Positions 19,837 through 27,292 of a stretch of DNA of 64,000 nt are shown one piece after another (position 1 is the stretch's first letter; each line of letters starts with the position of its first letter). Both the position numbers and the translations under genes were made by a program. Source of the stretch: Novacetimonas cocois (lineage in GTDB: Bacteria; Pseudomonadota; Alphaproteobacteria; Acetobacterales; Acetobacteraceae). Location of the stretch: the NCBI RefSeq assembly GCF_003311635.1, contig NZ_QEXL01000002.1, positions 186,001 through 250,000 of the forward strand. The letters run 5' to 3'. The notes under the pieces are model-generated. The model was not told where the DNA came from, ran no database searches, and saw nothing but the letters and a program-made list of their open reading frames with translations.

Positions 19837-21102
19837 ATGACTGACCTCATCAATGTTACCCGCCTGCCTTCCGGGCTGACTGTCGTCACCGAACGGATGG
19901 AGCGTGTCGAGACCGTTTCGTTCGGGGCGTATGTCGCCGCCGGCACCTGCAACGAAGCCGCGAGCGAGAACGGGGTTTCCCATTTCCTCGAACACATGGC
20001 CTTCAAGGGCACGGCAACGCGCACGGCGGCGGGCATCGCGGAAGAGATCGAGAATGTCGGCGGCCACATCAATGCCTATACCGCCCGCGAACACACGGCC
20101 TATTACGTCAAGCTGCTGAAGGAGGACCTGCCGCTGGGTGTGGACATCATCGGCGACATCCTGACCCACAGCAGCTTCGCCCCCGAGGAGCTGGAGCGCG
20201 AACGCGGCGTGATCCTGCAGGAAATCGGGCAGGCGAACGATACGCCCGATGACATCGTGTTCGACCATTTCCAGGAAACGGCCTTTCCGGACCAGCCGAT
20301 GGGCCGCCCCACCCTGGGGACCGAGGACGGCATCCGCGGAATGAGCCGCGAGACCCTGATGACCTACATGCGCACGCATTACACCACGCGCAACACCATC
20401 ATCGCGGCGGCAGGCAACCTGCATCACCACAAGGTGGTGGCGCTGGTTGAAAAATATTTCCAGGACCTGCCGCAGACAGACGTCCCCCCGCGTCCCGCCG
20501 TGACCTATGTCGGGGGCGATTTCGCGCAGCAGCGTGAGCTTGACCAGGCGCATATCGTGCTCGGCTTCCCCTCCGTCGGATATGGCGATCCGGACTATTA
20601 CCCCACCCTGCTGCTTTCGACCCTGCTGGGCGGTGGCATGTCGTCGCGCCTGTTCCAGGAAATCCGCGAGAAGCGTGGCCTCGTCTATTCCGTCTATTCC
20701 TTCAACGCCCCGTTCCGTCAGGGCGGCCTGTTCGGCATTTACGCCGGCACGGGCGAGGCACAGGTGGCCGACCTGATCCCCGTAACACTGGAGGAACTGC
20801 GCAAGGTGCAGGGGCAGGTGGCGCAGAATGAGCTTGACCGCGCGCGCGCGCAGCTGAAATCATCGCTGCTGATGTCACTGGAAAGCACCGGCAGCCGATG
20901 CGAACAGCTGGCGCGGCAGCTGCAGATTTTCGACCGCCTGATTCCCACCCATGAAACGGTGAAACGGATCGACGCCGTCACCATCGCCGACGTGCAGCGC
21001 GTGGCGGCACGGATTTTCCATGGCACGCCCACCCTGACGTCGCTGGGACCGGTCCGGCACATGCCCCCCGTCGCCACCGTTGCGGAGATCCTTGCCCGAT
21101 GA
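19837..21102 (+). CDS. M16 family zinc peptidase (processing-peptidase-like)
   Basis: A pitrilysin/MPP-type metallopeptidase of the type close to mitochondrial beta-MPP. The inverted zinc motif HXXEH is HFLEHMAFKG near residue 49, and the third ligand Glu comes from the ELERERGVILQEIGQANDTP helix about 75 residues later. The second, inactive M16 half is present (GGGMSSRLFQEIREKRGLVY). 421 residues is the usual single-subunit length. AGGA precedes the ATG. The last four bases overlap the start of the PmbA gene, so the two peptidase-family genes are translationally coupled. Confidence 0.94.
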   Translation: MTDLINVTRLPSGLTVVTERMERVETVSFGAYVAAGTCNEAASENGVSHFLEHMAFKGTATRTAAGIAEEIENVGGHINAYTAREHTAYYVKLLKEDLPLGVDIIGDILTHSSFAPEELERERGVILQEIGQANDTPDDIVFDHFQETAFPDQPMGRPTLGTEDGIRGMSRETLMTYMRTHYTTRNTIIAAAGNLHHHKVVALVEKYFQDLPQTDVPPRPAVTYVGGDFAQQRELDQAHIVLGFPSVGYGDPDYYPTLLLSTLLGGGMSSRLFQEIREKRGLVYSVYSFNAPFRQGGLFGIYAGTGEAQVADLIPVTLEELRKVQGQVAQNELDRARAQLKSSLLMSLESTGSRCEQLARQLQIFDRLIPTHETVKRIDAVTIADVQRVAARIFHGTPTLTSLGPVRHMPPVATVAEILAR

Positions 21103-22439
21103 ATGCACAGCCGCTCGACCTCGTCTCGACCCTGCTCAGCCGGGCACGCGCCGCCGGCGCGGATGCGGCCGATGCGGTTTACATCACCCGGACCGCCCAT
21201 GCGGCGCAGGTGCGCAATGGCAAGGCGGAGGATCTGGAACGTTCCGAGACATGCGACCTTGGGCTGCGTGTTTTCGTGGGACGGCGTTCGGCCATCGTTT
21301 CGGCCACCAGCCTTGATCCCGCGCGCTTCGACCTGCTGGTGACACAGGCGCTTGCCATGGCGCGCGTCGTGCCGGAGGACCGCTTTGCCGGGCTGTGTGA
21401 CCAGGCGGTGCAGGGACGCCTTGACGCGGCGGGGCTGGACCTTGTGGATACGGCGACGCCTTCGACGGCGGATCTGATCGAACGCGCCCGCGTGGCCGAG
21501 GCCGCGGCACTTGCGGTAAGCGGCGTGACCAACACCAACGGTGCGTCCGCCAGCGCGGGACATACCGACATCGTCCTGATGACCTCCGCCGGGTTTTCGG
21601 GGGAATATTCACGCACCAGCCACTCCGTCTCCGCCAGCGTGGTGGCGGGGCAGGGCACCGCGATGCAGCGTGATTACGATTATCATTCGGCGGTGCACCT
21701 GTCGGACCTGGAGGACGCAGCCACCATCGGGCGGCGGGCGGGCGAACGCACCGTGGCGCGCCTGAACCCGACACGGCCGCGTACCGGCCGGCTGCCCATC
21801 GTGCTGGACCCGCGTATCTCCACCAGTCTGCTGGGCCATCTGTCGGGCGCGATCAACGGGATTTCCATCGCGCGGGGGACCTCCTTCCTCAAGGACCGGC
21901 TGGAGCGGAAGATCATGGAGTCCGGTATCACCATCATCGACGATCCCGTACGCCGGCGCGGTCTGGGCGCGCATCCGTTTGATGGCGAGGGAATGCGCAC
22001 GCATCCCCTGACGATCGTGGAAAACGGGGTGCTCAGGACATGGGCGCTCGACGCGCGCAGTGCGCGGCAGCTGGGGCTGACATCGAACGGATGCGCCAGC
22101 CGTGGCGCCTCCTCCCCACCGTCGCCGTCGCTGGGCAACCTGTACATGCAGCCGGGACAGGTGACACCGCAGGAACTGATGGCGGATATCGGCGAAGGAA
22201 TTTACATCACCGAACTGATGGGATCGGCCATCAACGGCATCACGGGCGATTACAGCCGCGGGGCCGCCGGTTTCATGATCCGTGACGGGGAACTGGCGGA
22301 ACCGGTGGCGGAACTGACGGTTGCGGGCAACCTGCTGGAAATGTTCGGTCGCATGCAGGTCGCCAATGACCTGGAATTCCGTCGCGCGACCAACGCCCCG
22401 ACCGTGCGGATCGATGACATGATGATTGCCGGGGCATGA
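21099..22439 (+). CDS. pmbA: TldD/PmbA family protein, PmbA (TldE) type
   Basis: PmbA/TldE partners TldD in a metalloprotease that degrades unfolded peptides and matures some modified peptides. Visible features: GLRVFVGRRSAIVSATSLD near residue 55, SVSASVVAGQGTAMQRDYDY, the GISIARGTSFLKDRL block, DDPVRRRGLGAHPFDGEGM, and the C-terminal GEGIYITELMGSAINGITGD and SRGAAGFMIRDGEL. It lacks the HEXXXH zinc site of TldD, which is what marks it as the PmbA half. No tldD is in the window. It starts inside the stop codon of the M16 peptidase gene (ATGA). Confidence 0.9.
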   Translation: MNAQPLDLVSTLLSRARAAGADAADAVYITRTAHAAQVRNGKAEDLERSETCDLGLRVFVGRRSAIVSATSLDPARFDLLVTQALAMARVVPEDRFAGLCDQAVQGRLDAAGLDLVDTATPSTADLIERARVAEAAALAVSGVTNTNGASASAGHTDIVLMTSAGFSGEYSRTSHSVSASVVAGQGTAMQRDYDYHSAVHLSDLEDAATIGRRAGERTVARLNPTRPRTGRLPIVLDPRISTSLLGHLSGAINGISIARGTSFLKDRLERKIMESGITIIDDPVRRRGLGAHPFDGEGMRTHPLTIVENGVLRTWALDARSARQLGLTSNGCASRGASSPPSPSLGNLYMQPGQVTPQELMADIGEGIYITELMGSAINGITGDYSRGAAGFMIRDGELAEPVAELTVAGNLLEMFGRMQVANDLEFRRATNAPTVRIDDMMIAGA

Positions 22440-22577: not shown

Positions 22578-23570
22578 ATGAAACAGACCCATACGCGACA
22601 GATGCCACGTAAACGCATCATCCTGAGCCTGAGTGCCGCACTCGCAGTGCTGCCGTTGCTTGTCCATTCCGTGCCCGCCGATGCGCGGGCCGGTGGTGGC
22701 ATGTCGATGGGCAGCCGGGGGTCCCGCACATACAGCGCACCTCCCCGGTCGGCCACGGCCCCGTATGGCGCGACTCCGTTCCAGCAGACGATGACGCCGC
22801 GTTCCAGCCCGTCCGCGCCTTATGGCACGGCCTCGCGCATGCCTTATGGCGCGGGGGCGGCTGCGATGATGGGGCGGCCCCGCCATCCCTTCCTCAGCGG
22901 CTTTGCCGGTGGTCTGCTGGGCGCGGGCCTGTTCGGCATGCTGTTTGGTCATGGGATGTTCGGTGGCGGCATGGGGGGTAGCGGGATCTTCGGCCTGCTG
23001 ATCCAGCTTCTGCTGATTTTCTTCGTGGTACGCTGGCTGGTCCGCCGCTTTGCCGGGAACAGGGCTTCCGGCGGTCCGGTGAGCATGCCGGGCCTGTCCA
23101 GCCTGACGGGCGGCGCCCCCGCGCAGCAGCCGATGGGGGGCAGCAGTGCCGCCAGTCCGCAGCCTGTCCTGACGGCAGCGGATTATCAGGCGTTCGAGCA
23201 GGCGCTGATCAATGTGCAGACGGCATGGAGCCAGCAGAACCTTGGTGCGCTGCAGCATATGGCAACGCCCGAGATGGTCAATTACTTCAGCAACCAGCTG
23301 AACGAACTTGCCAGCCGGGGCGCACGCAATGTCGTGTCGGACGTACGCTTTGAACGGGGAGACCTGACGGAAAGCTGGCGGGAAAACGGCATGGATTATG
23401 CCACGGTCGCCATGCGGTATTCCCTGATCGACATCACCACCGACATGACCGGCCGTGTAATTGACGGTAGCTCCACAGAGCGCACGACGGTCACGGAACT
23501 CTGGACCTTCGTGCGCAGTGCACGTGGCGGAACATGGCTGGTGGCCGCCATACAGCAGGCCGCCCGGTGA
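22578..23570 (+). CDS. Tim44-like domain protein with signal peptide and Gly-rich membrane region
   Basis: A 330-residue exported or membrane protein. Residues 1-36 look like a signal peptide (KRIILSLSAALAVLPLLV, ending in ADARA). A Ser/Pro/Tyr-rich low-complexity segment follows, then a Gly-rich hydrophobic stretch (GFAGGLLGAGLFGMLF) and a membrane helix (GLLIQLLLIFFVVRWLVRRF). From about residue 195 comes a Tim44-like domain: YQAFEQALINVQTAWSQQNL, then LGALQHMATPEMVNYF and ELWTFVRS. Role unknown. This is the second Tim44-type gene in the window after the one at 1-316. A bidirectional terminator follows. Confidence 0.8.
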   Translation: MKQTHTRQMPRKRIILSLSAALAVLPLLVHSVPADARAGGGMSMGSRGSRTYSAPPRSATAPYGATPFQQTMTPRSSPSAPYGTASRMPYGAGAAAMMGRPRHPFLSGFAGGLLGAGLFGMLFGHGMFGGGMGGSGIFGLLIQLLLIFFVVRWLVRRFAGNRASGGPVSMPGLSSLTGGAPAQQPMGGSSAASPQPVLTAADYQAFEQALINVQTAWSQQNLGALQHMATPEMVNYFSNQLNELASRGARNVVSDVRFERGDLTESWRENGMDYATVAMRYSLIDITTDMTGRVIDGSSTERTTVTELWTFVRSARGGTWLVAAIQQAAR

Positions 23571-24028: not shown

Positions 24029-24976
24029 TCAGTGCATGATCAGGAAATGATCGGCCAGCAGTCCGCAGAACAGCAGGAACAGGTACGCAAGGGAATAGCG
24101 GAACGCCTTGCGCGCCGGCAGGTCGCCTGTCTGGCTCACGCCCTGCGCATCCTGCCTGTCACGCAGCACCCCAATGGCACGATAGATGAACCCCAGCCCC
24201 AGCACCGTGGCCGTCAGGGTATAGAGCCATCCGGCCAGATGCATCACGGACGGCACCAGCGTCACGGCCATCAGGATGATGGTGTACCACAGGATCTGCC
24301 AGCGCGTATGCCGCGCGCCCCGCACCACCGGCAGCATCGGGATCCCCGCCCGCCCGTAATCCTTGCACGCATAAAGCGACAGCGACCAGAAATGCGGTGG
24401 CGTCCACAGGAAAATGATGCCGAACATGACAATCGGCAGGACCGACAGCGACCCTGTCGCCGCTGCCCATCCGATCATGGGAGGAAAGGCACCCGCCGCA
24501 CCACCGATGACGATATTCTGCGGCGTGGAACGTTTCAGCCACATCGTATAGACAACGGCATAGAAAAAGATCGAGAACGCCAGGATACCCGCCGCCAGCG
24601 CATTCGTCGCCAGCCACATCAGGATGACCGACGCGACCGACAGGCCGATGCCAAATCCCAGCACCTCGTCCGGGGCCATGCGTCCATCGGGGATGGGACG
24701 GGTGGCCGTGCGTTTCATCACGGCGTCGATGTCACGGTCATACCACATGTTGATCGCGCCCGCCGCGCCCGACGCCATGCAGATGCACAGGATGCTGATG
24801 GCCGCGATCACGGGATGAATCGACCCCGGCGCCATCGCAAGGCCCGCGGCACCGGTAAAGACCACAAGGGAAATCACCCGTGGCTTGAGCAACACGAACC
24901 AGTCACGCGCCTGCGTCCCCACGACGGAAAGGCGATAGGTCGGCTTCTCGCCGGCAGATGCGACCGAACCACTCAT
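24029..24976 (-). CDS. ctaB: protoheme IX farnesyltransferase (heme O synthase)
   Basis: CtaB prenylates heme B to heme O, needed by bo3 ubiquinol oxidase and as the precursor of heme A. Aspartate-rich prenyltransferase motifs are present: NMWYDRDIDAVMKRT with TRPIPDGRM near residue 75-95, and the WTPPHFWSLSLYACKDYGRA loop near 200. About nine membrane segments are predicted. ATG 24976 is chosen because it overlaps the stop codon of the upstream ctaD-like gene by 4 bp (ATGA). The frame stays open 20 codons further upstream but inside that gene. Acetic acid bacteria respire mainly through bo3-type quinol oxidase, which would explain keeping ctaB. Confidence 0.95.
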   Translation of the reverse strand: MSGSVASAGEKPTYRLSVVGTQARDWFVLLKPRVISLVVFTGAAGLAMAPGSIHPVIAAISILCICMASGAAGAINMWYDRDIDAVMKRTATRPIPDGRMAPDEVLGFGIGLSVASVILMWLATNALAAGILAFSIFFYAVVYTMWLKRSTPQNIVIGGAAGAFPPMIGWAAATGSLSVLPIVMFGIIFLWTPPHFWSLSLYACKDYGRAGIPMLPVVRGARHTRWQILWYTIILMAVTLVPSVMHLAGWLYTLTATVLGLGFIYRAIGVLRDRQDAQGVSQTGDLPARKAFRYSLAYLFLLFCGLLADHFLIMH

Positions 24977-26394
24977 GACCGGTTCCCTTTCGCGTCGGTG
25001 TTCAGCGCGGTTCCGACAGGCGAAGGCAGGCGCCATTCCAGCGTCCGCGCCCCGGTACCCCAGTAATTGGCGGCAACATGGCCCTGCCCGCGCATGCAGG
25101 TCGCGACAAGCACGCCCGCGAAGACCAAGATGGAAACCCCCATCATCACCGCGCCCGCAACGGCCAGCGGCCCCTGATGCGTCATCAGGGAAACGGCCGT
25201 GCCAACCGCCGTCAGGGCGAAATGGATATTCCCGGCCATGCGTGGGACAAGATGGCCGCTCATCTTGCCAATCCAGTAATAGAAACCGGCAAAGGTCGCA
25301 AAAACCGCAGCGAATACGGTCGCGGCATGCACGTCACCCGTTCCACCGGACCGCAGCGACATCATGCCACCTGCCACCAGCAGGACGGCGCATCCCCCGG
25401 CCCAGGCCATCGGCAGGCGAAAAGATATCCGTCCCGCCGCGCCAATGGTCGCCACCCACGCCGCCATCACCACCACGACAGGGGCAAGAATGACGATCAG
25501 TTCCCCCGTCGTCCGGAACGCATCCGCCGTGTTCAGCAGGCCGTCGAACAGGTCATGGGTCCAGACGGAGGCCCCACCCACGGACATCACCGTCAGCGCC
25601 ATGACAACCGGCATGCGCCAGCGCAGGGAAACGCCACAGAAGGTTTCGACGACCTGGCTGACAATCCCCATGGACGGCAGCAGCAGCAGCGCCACCTCCG
25701 GACCGGAAAAGGCATGCAGCACCGTATCGACATGGGCCAGGACATCGCCGCCATCCAGCACGATGCGCGTCAGTGCCGCCGCCAGCACCGGCACGACCAT
25801 GACCAGCATGAACGCCGTCAGCACCTGCGCCCAGACAAACACCGGCATGTCGCGAAGCCGCATGGCGGGCGCGCGCATGTTCAGGACGGACGCCACCATG
25901 TTGATGCCCATTCCCAGCATGCCGACACACCACAGCAGCAGGGCGGCGACGGATACCAGCGGCGACGTCGCCACCGACAGGCCGACCAGCGTCATCACGA
26001 AACTGCCCGCGACCGCGCACCAGCAGGCCATGTTGAGCCGGGGAAAGGCCATGTCGCGCGCACCGGTCAGCAGCGGCACGAACCAGTTGCCGAACCCGCC
26101 GGACAGGGCGGGCAGCACGCAGAAAAAGACCATCATCATGCCGTGGCGCGTGGCGATGCGTTCCCACATTCCGGCGGGATCGCCCCCGCCCCAGCGCGCC
26201 AGCACGTCATGGGGCAGCAACCCGGCCTGCAGCGCAACCGCAAGCATGCCGCCCACGATCCCCGCCACGACCGCGAGGGAGAGATACAGCGTTCCCACCT
26301 TCCGGTGGCCATCCGCATGGCCCCGCTGTCCCGCCAGCCGCGCAGGCAGGCCAGCGTTTCCGCCATCGATCCGGTCGTGACCGACTGTCGGCAT
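24973..26394 (-). CDS. divergent heme-copper oxidase subunit I homologue lacking binuclear-centre ligands
   Basis: Clear homology to CtaD/CoxI: RHGMMMVFFCVLPALSGGFG and GARDMAFPRLN (residues 83-121), GPEVALLLLPSMGI (231-244), WVATI, and AVFATFAGFYYWIGK (363-377). The heme a (low-spin) histidines survive as H84 and H356, and so do the D-channel Asp (D114) and the Glu of helix VI (E233). The binuclear centre is gone: the helix VI G-H-P-E-V-Y motif reads S-G-P-E-V-A, so the CuB His and cross-linked Tyr are lost. The His-His pair reads H280-D281, the heme a3 His is D354, and the K-channel Lys aligns with a Val. Length 473 is short. GAGGGGAG supports ATG 26394. It is intact, coupled to ctaB, with no ctaC or ctaE nearby. 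Confidence 0.85.
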   Translation of the reverse strand: MPTVGHDRIDGGNAGLPARLAGQRGHADGHRKVGTLYLSLAVVAGIVGGMLAVALQAGLLPHDVLARWGGGDPAGMWERIATRHGMMMVFFCVLPALSGGFGNWFVPLLTGARDMAFPRLNMACWCAVAGSFVMTLVGLSVATSPLVSVAALLLWCVGMLGMGINMVASVLNMRAPAMRLRDMPVFVWAQVLTAFMLVMVVPVLAAALTRIVLDGGDVLAHVDTVLHAFSGPEVALLLLPSMGIVSQVVETFCGVSLRWRMPVVMALTVMSVGGASVWTHDLFDGLLNTADAFRTTGELIVILAPVVVVMAAWVATIGAAGRISFRLPMAWAGGCAVLLVAGGMMSLRSGGTGDVHAATVFAAVFATFAGFYYWIGKMSGHLVPRMAGNIHFALTAVGTAVSLMTHQGPLAVAGAVMMGVSILVFAGVLVATCMRGQGHVAANYWGTGARTLEWRLPSPVGTALNTDAKGNRS

Positions 26395-26581: not shown

Positions 26582-27292
26582 TCAGGCCACCAGCGACTCA
26601 GTCTTCTCGTCCAGCCGGTCGAGCGTGACAAGCGTGAACAGGCCCGCAGGCGGCACGGGACGGATGACCGCGCGCGCCAGATCCTCCGGCGGGAGGAGGC
26701 TTTCCATCGCGAAATCCGGGTGCCAGCCCAGCGAGCGCGAGGCCCGTGCCATGCCGCGCTCCACCGCCAGCCGCACGCCGCCGGTCGCAAGGAAATGGTT
26801 AACGAACAGGATATGCCCGCCCGGCTTGACCACGCGCTTGAGCTCGCTGAGCAGGCGACGCGGATGCGGCACGACCGACGCCACGAACATCGCCACCGCG
26901 ATATCGAACGACGCATCGGGGAACTTTGTTTCCTCCGCGTCCATTTCCAGCAGCGCATCCACGTTCGTAAGGTGCATCTTCGTCACGCGCTGACGCGCGC
27001 GTTCCAGCATGTCTTCCGACAGGTCGATCCCCGTGATCTGCTTGTCACGGCGGTAATAGGGCAGCGCCAGCCCCGTGCCGACCCCGACCTCCAGCACTTG
27101 CTGGCCCGGCAGGGCATTCACCGCTTCGACCGCCCGCTTGCGCGCAAGGGCCGATATGCCACCGAAAAGGGTGTCGTACACCGCCGCCCAGCGACGATAG
27201 GCGACCCTGACGGCATCGGCGTCCAGGGCGGAGCGCGGCGACGGAATCTCGACCACTTTTTCGGCAGTGGCATTACGCAGAACGTCACTCAT
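26582..27292 (-). CDS. pmtA: phosphatidylethanolamine N-methyltransferase (Rhodobacter-type PmtA)
   Basis: A soluble or peripheral SAM-dependent methyltransferase that makes phosphatidylcholine by three methylations of PE. VRVAYRRWAAVYDTLFGG near residue 29 and the SAM motif QVLEVGVGTGLALPYY near 65 are characteristic of the Rhodobacter sphaeroides PmtA type, as are GIDLSEDMLERARQRV, LTNVDALLEMDAE and LKRVVKPGGHILFVNHF. Phosphatidylcholine made by a Pmt enzyme is reported for Acetobacter, which fits. UbiE or another small-molecule methyltransferase is the alternative but matches the N-terminal block less well. It lies 240 bp downstream of gshB; that gap (27293-27532) shows no gene. Confidence 0.85.
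   Translation of the reverse strand: MSDVLRNATAEKVVEIPSPRSALDADAVRVAYRRWAAVYDTLFGGISALARKRAVEAVNALPGQQVLEVGVGTGLALPYYRRDKQITGIDLSEDMLERARQRVTKMHLTNVDALLEMDAEETKFPDASFDIAVAMFVASVVPHPRRLLSELKRVVKPGGHILFVNHFLATGGVRLAVERGMARASRSLGWHPDFAMESLLPPEDLARAVIRPVPPAGLFTLVTLDRLDEKTESLVA

Follow-up and report, generated by a model that had tools for sequence, protein, structure and literature searches.

A gene of Novacetimonas cocois descended from ctaD, which encodes subunit I of cytochrome oxidase, has lost ligands of the heme a3/CuB centre and has kept the two histidines of the low-spin heme. The earlier note had described such a CtaD homologue, with a dismantled binuclear centre and an intact low-spin site, in the window (the whole stretch of 64,000 nucleotides that was analysed); its anatomy is now confirmed throughout the family, at 94 loci in 20 genera. 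We use dCOX1 as the label for this 473-aa CtaD orthologue and for its orthologue family. dCOX1 is under purifying selection, lies invariably beside ctaB, and co-occurs with the bo3 quinol oxidase. We favour the reading that it is a membrane protein with one heme that works with CtaB to supply heme O or to assemble bo3, with a probability of about 0.52; heme binding, the type of heme, the contact with CtaB and a handoff are the parts that we infer.

The gene and its fold

The gene and its downstream neighbour are arranged as follows:

24973..26394, minus strand: dCOX1, degenerate cytochrome oxidase subunit I (ctaD orthologue), 473 aa, ATG start, open frame
24029..24976, minus strand: ctaB, heme O synthase (330.9 bits with TIGR01473, whose cut-off is 210.3; score obtained on the longer frame 24029-25036)
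24973..24976, minus strand: ATGA, in which the dCOX1 stop and the ctaB start overlap

The frame had been called open, well started and coupled to ctaB, and the ATG start and the ATGA overlap agree with this description. Homology to heme-copper oxidase subunit I is found with the Pfam model COX1 (PF00115), which scores 159.2 bits (E 2e-46; cut-off 34.8). The protein scores below the cut-offs of the curated models for CtaD (NCBIfam TIGR02891, 195.5 bits against 670.75) and CyoB (124.5 bits against 1020.35). An AlphaFold model calculated from a 36-row alignment has a pLDDT of 81.3 and a pTM of 0.85, and the predicted structure superposes on Paracoccus subunit I (1ar1_A) with a Z of 42.9 and 2.9 Å over 420 residues. 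The subunit I fold is thus retained in the model. The closest named orthologues are those of Gluconacetobacter entanii (78% identity in the best segment) and Novacetimonas hansenii (76%). No structured RNA matched at the gathering threshold between 23500 and 27600.

The genome that carries dCOX1 (3.40 Mb, 75 contigs) has four COX1-family genes, namely two without stops, dCOX1, and one with a single TAG on a short contig. A second intact protein of 551 aa (L002, L219; G000:C23:171737-173065) keeps the binuclear ligands and the Lys, and has Ala at the position of the A-type helix VI Glu. The frame with one TAG (L003/L217) lies on a contig of 3,684 bases (G000:C40), and its motifs presumably resemble those of quinol nitric oxide reductase.

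Metal ligands of the window protein

Residues were mapped through alignments to functional CtaD, several of which agree, onto the numbering and the residue roles known for the R. sphaeroides and bovine oxidases, which we take as given. The low-spin heme pair of functional CtaD is present, as H84 and H356:

26143..26145, minus strand: codon of His84 (CAC), equivalent to R. sphaeroides H102, low-spin heme ligand in helix II
25327..25329, minus strand: codon of His356 (CAT), equivalent to R. sphaeroides H421, low-spin heme ligand in helix X

The other residues that had been named from the sequence are likewise borne out. D114 corresponds to R. sphaeroides D132 and E233 to E286. The motif SGPEVA places G at the position of H284 and A at that of Y288, H280-D281 takes the position of H333-H334, D354 occupies that of H419, and Val that of K362. 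The earlier note had not mentioned that three sets of residues have gone by deletion of the segments bearing them: the Mg-site His, the Trp in the loop between helices III and IV, and R481/R482, the propionate arginines. The complete set of CuB ligands, a3 ligand and cross-linked Tyr is absent from the window protein and from all 94 dCOX1 rows, and a working oxidase was rejected on this ground. An alignment slip that masks the ligands was rejected too, since four alignments are concordant; the register of helix X is anchored by a block, AVF..FAGFYYWIGK, common to dCOX1 and functional CtaD.

Selective conservation of the low-spin site

A 25-row profile was searched against 397 genomes of the family and against 70 chosen genomes. 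The resulting alignment contains 94 distinct loci from 20 acetous genera, by assigned genus labels. Outside it stand L133-L161 (29 loci; the window's genus, g61 and g43; partly duplicates, with L161 counted as L216) and the repeat copies L004, L005, L007, L012 and L047-L052. Loci entered the set by their profile score, so that members too diverged to be recognised would have escaped.

Pairwise identity among the 94 proteins has a median of 26% and a minimum of 14%, and at every locus a single frame runs from the column of residue 84 to that of residue 414. H356 is kept in all 94 and H84 in 93, the single miss being the frameshifted copy L206. H284, Y288 and K362 are lost everywhere (0/94 each), and H334 and H419 survive in 2 of 94 each. 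Conservation is partial for H333 (47/94), E286 (50/94) and D132 (22/94). R481 and R482 are gaps in 92 rows and the Mg-site His in 93, and the formyl-binding Arg is kept in 11. One row (L167) has two of the six residues that make up the a3 and CuB ligands, the Tyr and the Lys; the binuclear set is found in no dCOX1 row.

The retention of the pair is selective. Across 45 rows of functional CtaD, 219 columns are invariant, and the 11 of these that are kept in all 40 dCOX1 rows of the same alignment include both low-spin histidines; P is about 0.002 for these two named columns, a rough value that treats columns as equal and ignores relatedness. Functional CtaD has 12 invariant His columns, 2 of which are kept in all 40 rows. 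After weighting (39.7 effective members), W188, W278, H356 and H84 are the four most conserved columns of dCOX1. Ancestral residues are retained most in the ligand helices II (0.43) and X (0.42) and least in the K-channel helix VIII (0.17). Both His codons are found as CAT and as CAC, so that these sites do mutate, and a FastTree tree of the 94 sequences has a total length of about 52 substitutions per site.

Two further tryptophans, W155 and W343 in window numbering, are conserved in dCOX1 (weighted 0.85 and 0.65), and the functional CtaD consensus has Ala and Gly there. It is possible that they are marks of a new function.

From the conserved ligands and the predicted fold, dCOX1 probably binds heme. 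The pair might instead bind a different ligand, such as copper or zinc, or have a structural task, and the loss of the propionate and formyl anchors would be expected then; its positions and helices are, however, those of the axial pair of heme a, within a fold that is kept, so that this explanation appears very unlikely. The erosion of heme anchors beyond the His pair (R481/R482 and the formyl Arg) does count against the one-heme partner that we prefer. It would suit a dCOX1 that carries no heme and serves only as a structural partner stabilising CtaB, the role already proposed in a passage of PMC10715153, and the fixed linkage to ctaB agrees with that role as well. We give such a partner little weight, because the invariance of exactly two low-spin histidines, with the other metal ligands lost, is left unaccounted for.

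Selection and decay

Nei-Gojobori dN/dS was calculated for 24 pairs from stop-to-stop frames with the first 20 codon pairs trimmed, and one pair gave no dS. In the 23 usable pairs dCOX1 has values from 0.060 to 0.430; 22 of them are at 0.27 or less, and therefore selection maintains the gene. The values of ctaB for the same pairs are 0.008 to 0.180, below those of dCOX1 in every case. Purifying selection acts on dCOX1 and is weaker than on ctaB. The higher rate of dCOX1 relative to ctaB in each of the 23 pairs is a second point against our preferred reading.

Frames cover helices II to XII at 93 of the 94 loci. At the remaining one (L206/L229; G326:C21), the helix II part of the spanning frame is non-homologous, and the homologous N-terminal part is encoded in a different frame, together with its His. 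This frameshift may be a sequencing error or early decay; the genome is 85% complete. Some profile matches show one to three stops, which by their coordinates lie at the match ends, outside the frames.

A functionless, decaying vestige is the sense of the 'accumulated mutations' that reportedly describe the gene in the abstract of Matsutani et al. 2014. Such a vestige would explain the lost residues and loops of the binuclear site, the faster evolution relative to ctaB, the one frameshifted copy (L206) and the one lineage without the gene (G001, described below). A vestige is hardly to be believed, however, when dN/dS is well below 1 and the frames of helices II to XII persist at 93 of 94 loci across a tree of such length. 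The signs of a pseudogene, relaxed selection and frequent disruption, were not found in the 23 usable pairs and the 94 loci. The earlier note had named such signs, or ligands restored by a better alignment, as what would overturn it; strongly relaxed selection did not appear, no ligand was restored, and L206 is the one clear frameshift. Its view of a protein that is not an obvious pseudogene, cannot reduce oxygen and could bind one heme has good support in orthologue conservation, dN/dS and synteny.

Linkage to ctaB and origin

Three further genes mark the synteny of the locus:

26582..27292, minus strand: methyltransferase gene, upstream same-strand neighbour of dCOX1
22578..23570, plus strand: Tim44-domain protein, on the far side of ctaB
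21099..22439, plus strand: TldD/PmbA family protein

Looking for orthologues beside ctaB in genomes of the family, as had been suggested, gave same-strand ctaB directly downstream of dCOX1 at 94 of 94 loci. A possible ctaB start overlaps the dCOX1 stop by 4 bases at 71 of these loci, as in the window, and by 1 base at 2; dCOX1 is probably co-translated with ctaB. The methyltransferase gene is the upstream neighbour at all 94, and glutathione synthetase is found within the examined stretch at 93. In Lichenicoccus (L077) the gene order is the same, and a COX2 gene, a ligand-complete ctaD, ctaB and a COX3 gene stand at the place of dCOX1. Because this gene order is shared with a complete COX operon, dCOX1 is the ancestral ctaD in place. 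The A-type ctaD of Acetobacteraceae would have stayed where it was after the neighbouring COX genes (ctaC, ctaE) were lost.

A tree of 48 dCOX1 and 20 functional proteins separates the two sets by a single 100/100 branch, in a topology with very long branches and a midpoint root. Repeated independent decay is disfavoured by this branch. A single origin of dCOX1 would be the simplest reading, though not a proven one.

The linkage to ctaB has to be read with care. As the ancestral COX operon already had ctaB next to ctaD, linkage alone is weak and non-independent evidence of shared function. The stronger point is that the linkage has outlasted the loss of ctaC and ctaE. One genome, G001 (L225; G001:C7:144000-155000), keeps the order TldD, Tim44-like, ctaB and methyltransferase with no dCOX1 between ctaB and the methyltransferase. 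In G009 and G031, ctaB lies at a contig edge, so that dCOX1 may be present or absent there. A longer COX1-family protein is encoded near ctaB in G077.

Co-occurrence with heme and oxidase genes

Genomes for this comparison were chosen, not random, and are related to one another. Among the 29 dCOX1 genomes tested, all have ctaB above its cut-off and all have CyoB (28 above the cut-off, and G032 just under it). Heme A synthase (CtaA) is present in 15 and gave no match in the other 14, for example G054, G085, G032 and G022, which nevertheless have a bo3 oxidase. Therefore heme O or B is a likelier cofactor than heme A, and a general carrier of heme A was rejected. The earlier note had suggested a handoff of heme O or A. 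The heme O half of that suggestion is in keeping with the ctaB operon and with the presence of bo3 alongside dCOX1; the heme A half cannot be general. SURF1 was found in none of 31 acetous genomes (the 29 with dCOX1, G001 and G009) and is present in Lichenicoccus.

Seven genomes without ctaB above the cut-off (G029, G116, G066, G070, G210, G076 and G002) have no CyoB match. No dCOX1 was found in them either, at E 1e-8 in G029, G066, G070 and G210 and at 1e-30 only in G116, G076 and G002. G002 has heme A synthase, and its assembly is in 550 contigs, so that its missing ctaB may be an assembly gap. The counter-example is again G001, which has ctaB and two CyoB without dCOX1; dCOX1 is thus dispensable there.

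Such patterns bear on whether dCOX1 works alone. A stand-alone membrane cytochrome with one heme, acting in electron transfer or heme sensing and tied to ctaB only by history, would keep the bis-His site, and the linkage is indeed ancestral, as in Lichenicoccus. However, dCOX1 occurs together with ctaB and CyoB in 29 genomes and all three are jointly absent from seven others, and the locus is without a partner gene for electron transfer. We regard a stand-alone cytochrome as unlikely. From linkage and co-occurrence we lean towards dCOX1 partnering CtaB or aiding bo3 assembly.

A possible role beside CtaB

Our preferred reading, the one-heme partner of CtaB, may be put as follows. dCOX1 is unable to form the heme a3/CuB centre and is maintained as a membrane protein of subunit I fold. 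One low-spin heme, O or B, would most likely be held between His84 in helix II and His356 in helix X. dCOX1 would then most likely work with CtaB, either by taking or holding newly made heme O or by stabilising CtaB while bearing heme. Cells that have no SURF1, and often no CtaA, could in this way assemble their bo3 or ba3 quinol oxidase. Handoff of heme by dCOX1 is a tentative element of this scheme. It is a little more doubtful still that an oxidase subunit was converted once, in the acetous ancestor, into a dedicated one-heme carrier of heme O from CtaB to bo3, in the role that CtaA or Surf1 have elsewhere. Across many genera of vinegar bacteria, the pattern suggests that dCOX1 gave up its work as an oxidase and has persisted for heme handling.

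Comparison with known systems

The gene itself is known already, printed as a non-functional or structural remnant of COX. A 'deranged COX1-like protein' in Acetobacter spp. is mentioned in a passage of PMC10715153, which cites Matsutani et al. 2014 and prints it as lacking all metal-binding residues. In A. pasteurianus, ctaB (APT_01774) and ctaD (APT_01775) bear adjacent locus numbers in the portion of PMC5158111 that gives them, and ctaB and ctaA are called functional remnants of the COX cluster in a passage of PMC6915089. The two cyo operons of Asaia are described in part of PMC4596401 as not flanked by cyoE or surf1. Heme insertion into subunit I after synthesis is stated to be not known in a section of a review (PMC9145763). 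In the open-access literature we found no report of a heme-binding role or a kept heme pair of dCOX1, and no paper on a heme-copper subunit I that is without CuB ligands or is termed a pseudoenzyme. Our analysis adds the conserved site predicted for one heme and shows how widely it occurs; it also adds a test for selection and links the gene to ctaB and bo3 instead of heme A.

A printed statement on a well-studied group is thereby corrected, and a supposed relic becomes a protein with a testable predicted cofactor. dCOX1 shows which half of the oxidase core can persist alone. If it is oxidase-shaped, tied to ctaB and low-spin-only, it would offer a simple system for studying heme insertion into subunit I. 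Since the gene is printed as the cytochrome c oxidase subunit ctaD (in the portion of PMC5158111 cited above), inventories of respiratory chains can miscount.

Three known systems are comparable. The ctaD remnant of Acetobacter, as described in passages of PMC5158111 and PMC10715153, is likewise COX1-like, lies beside ctaB and has no oxidase function, and from the printed description and locus numbers we take it to be of the same orthologous family. It is printed there as having no metal-binding residues, whereas dCOX1 keeps the low-spin His pair in its 94 loci, which contradicts the loss of 'all' of them. Functional A-type CtaD (Lichenicoccus, Acidocella, Paracoccus) is orthologous to dCOX1 by synteny and tree and has the same fold and the same low-spin ligands, but dCOX1 is without the binuclear centre, the cross-linked Tyr, the K channel, the Mg site and the propionate arginines, and has no ctaC or ctaE beside it. 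CtaA (heme A synthase) and Surf1 are alike only in how they work, as membrane proteins that hold heme O or A near CtaB or during assembly (so described in a section of PMC9145763); they belong to families unrelated to dCOX1, which is a former oxidase subunit.
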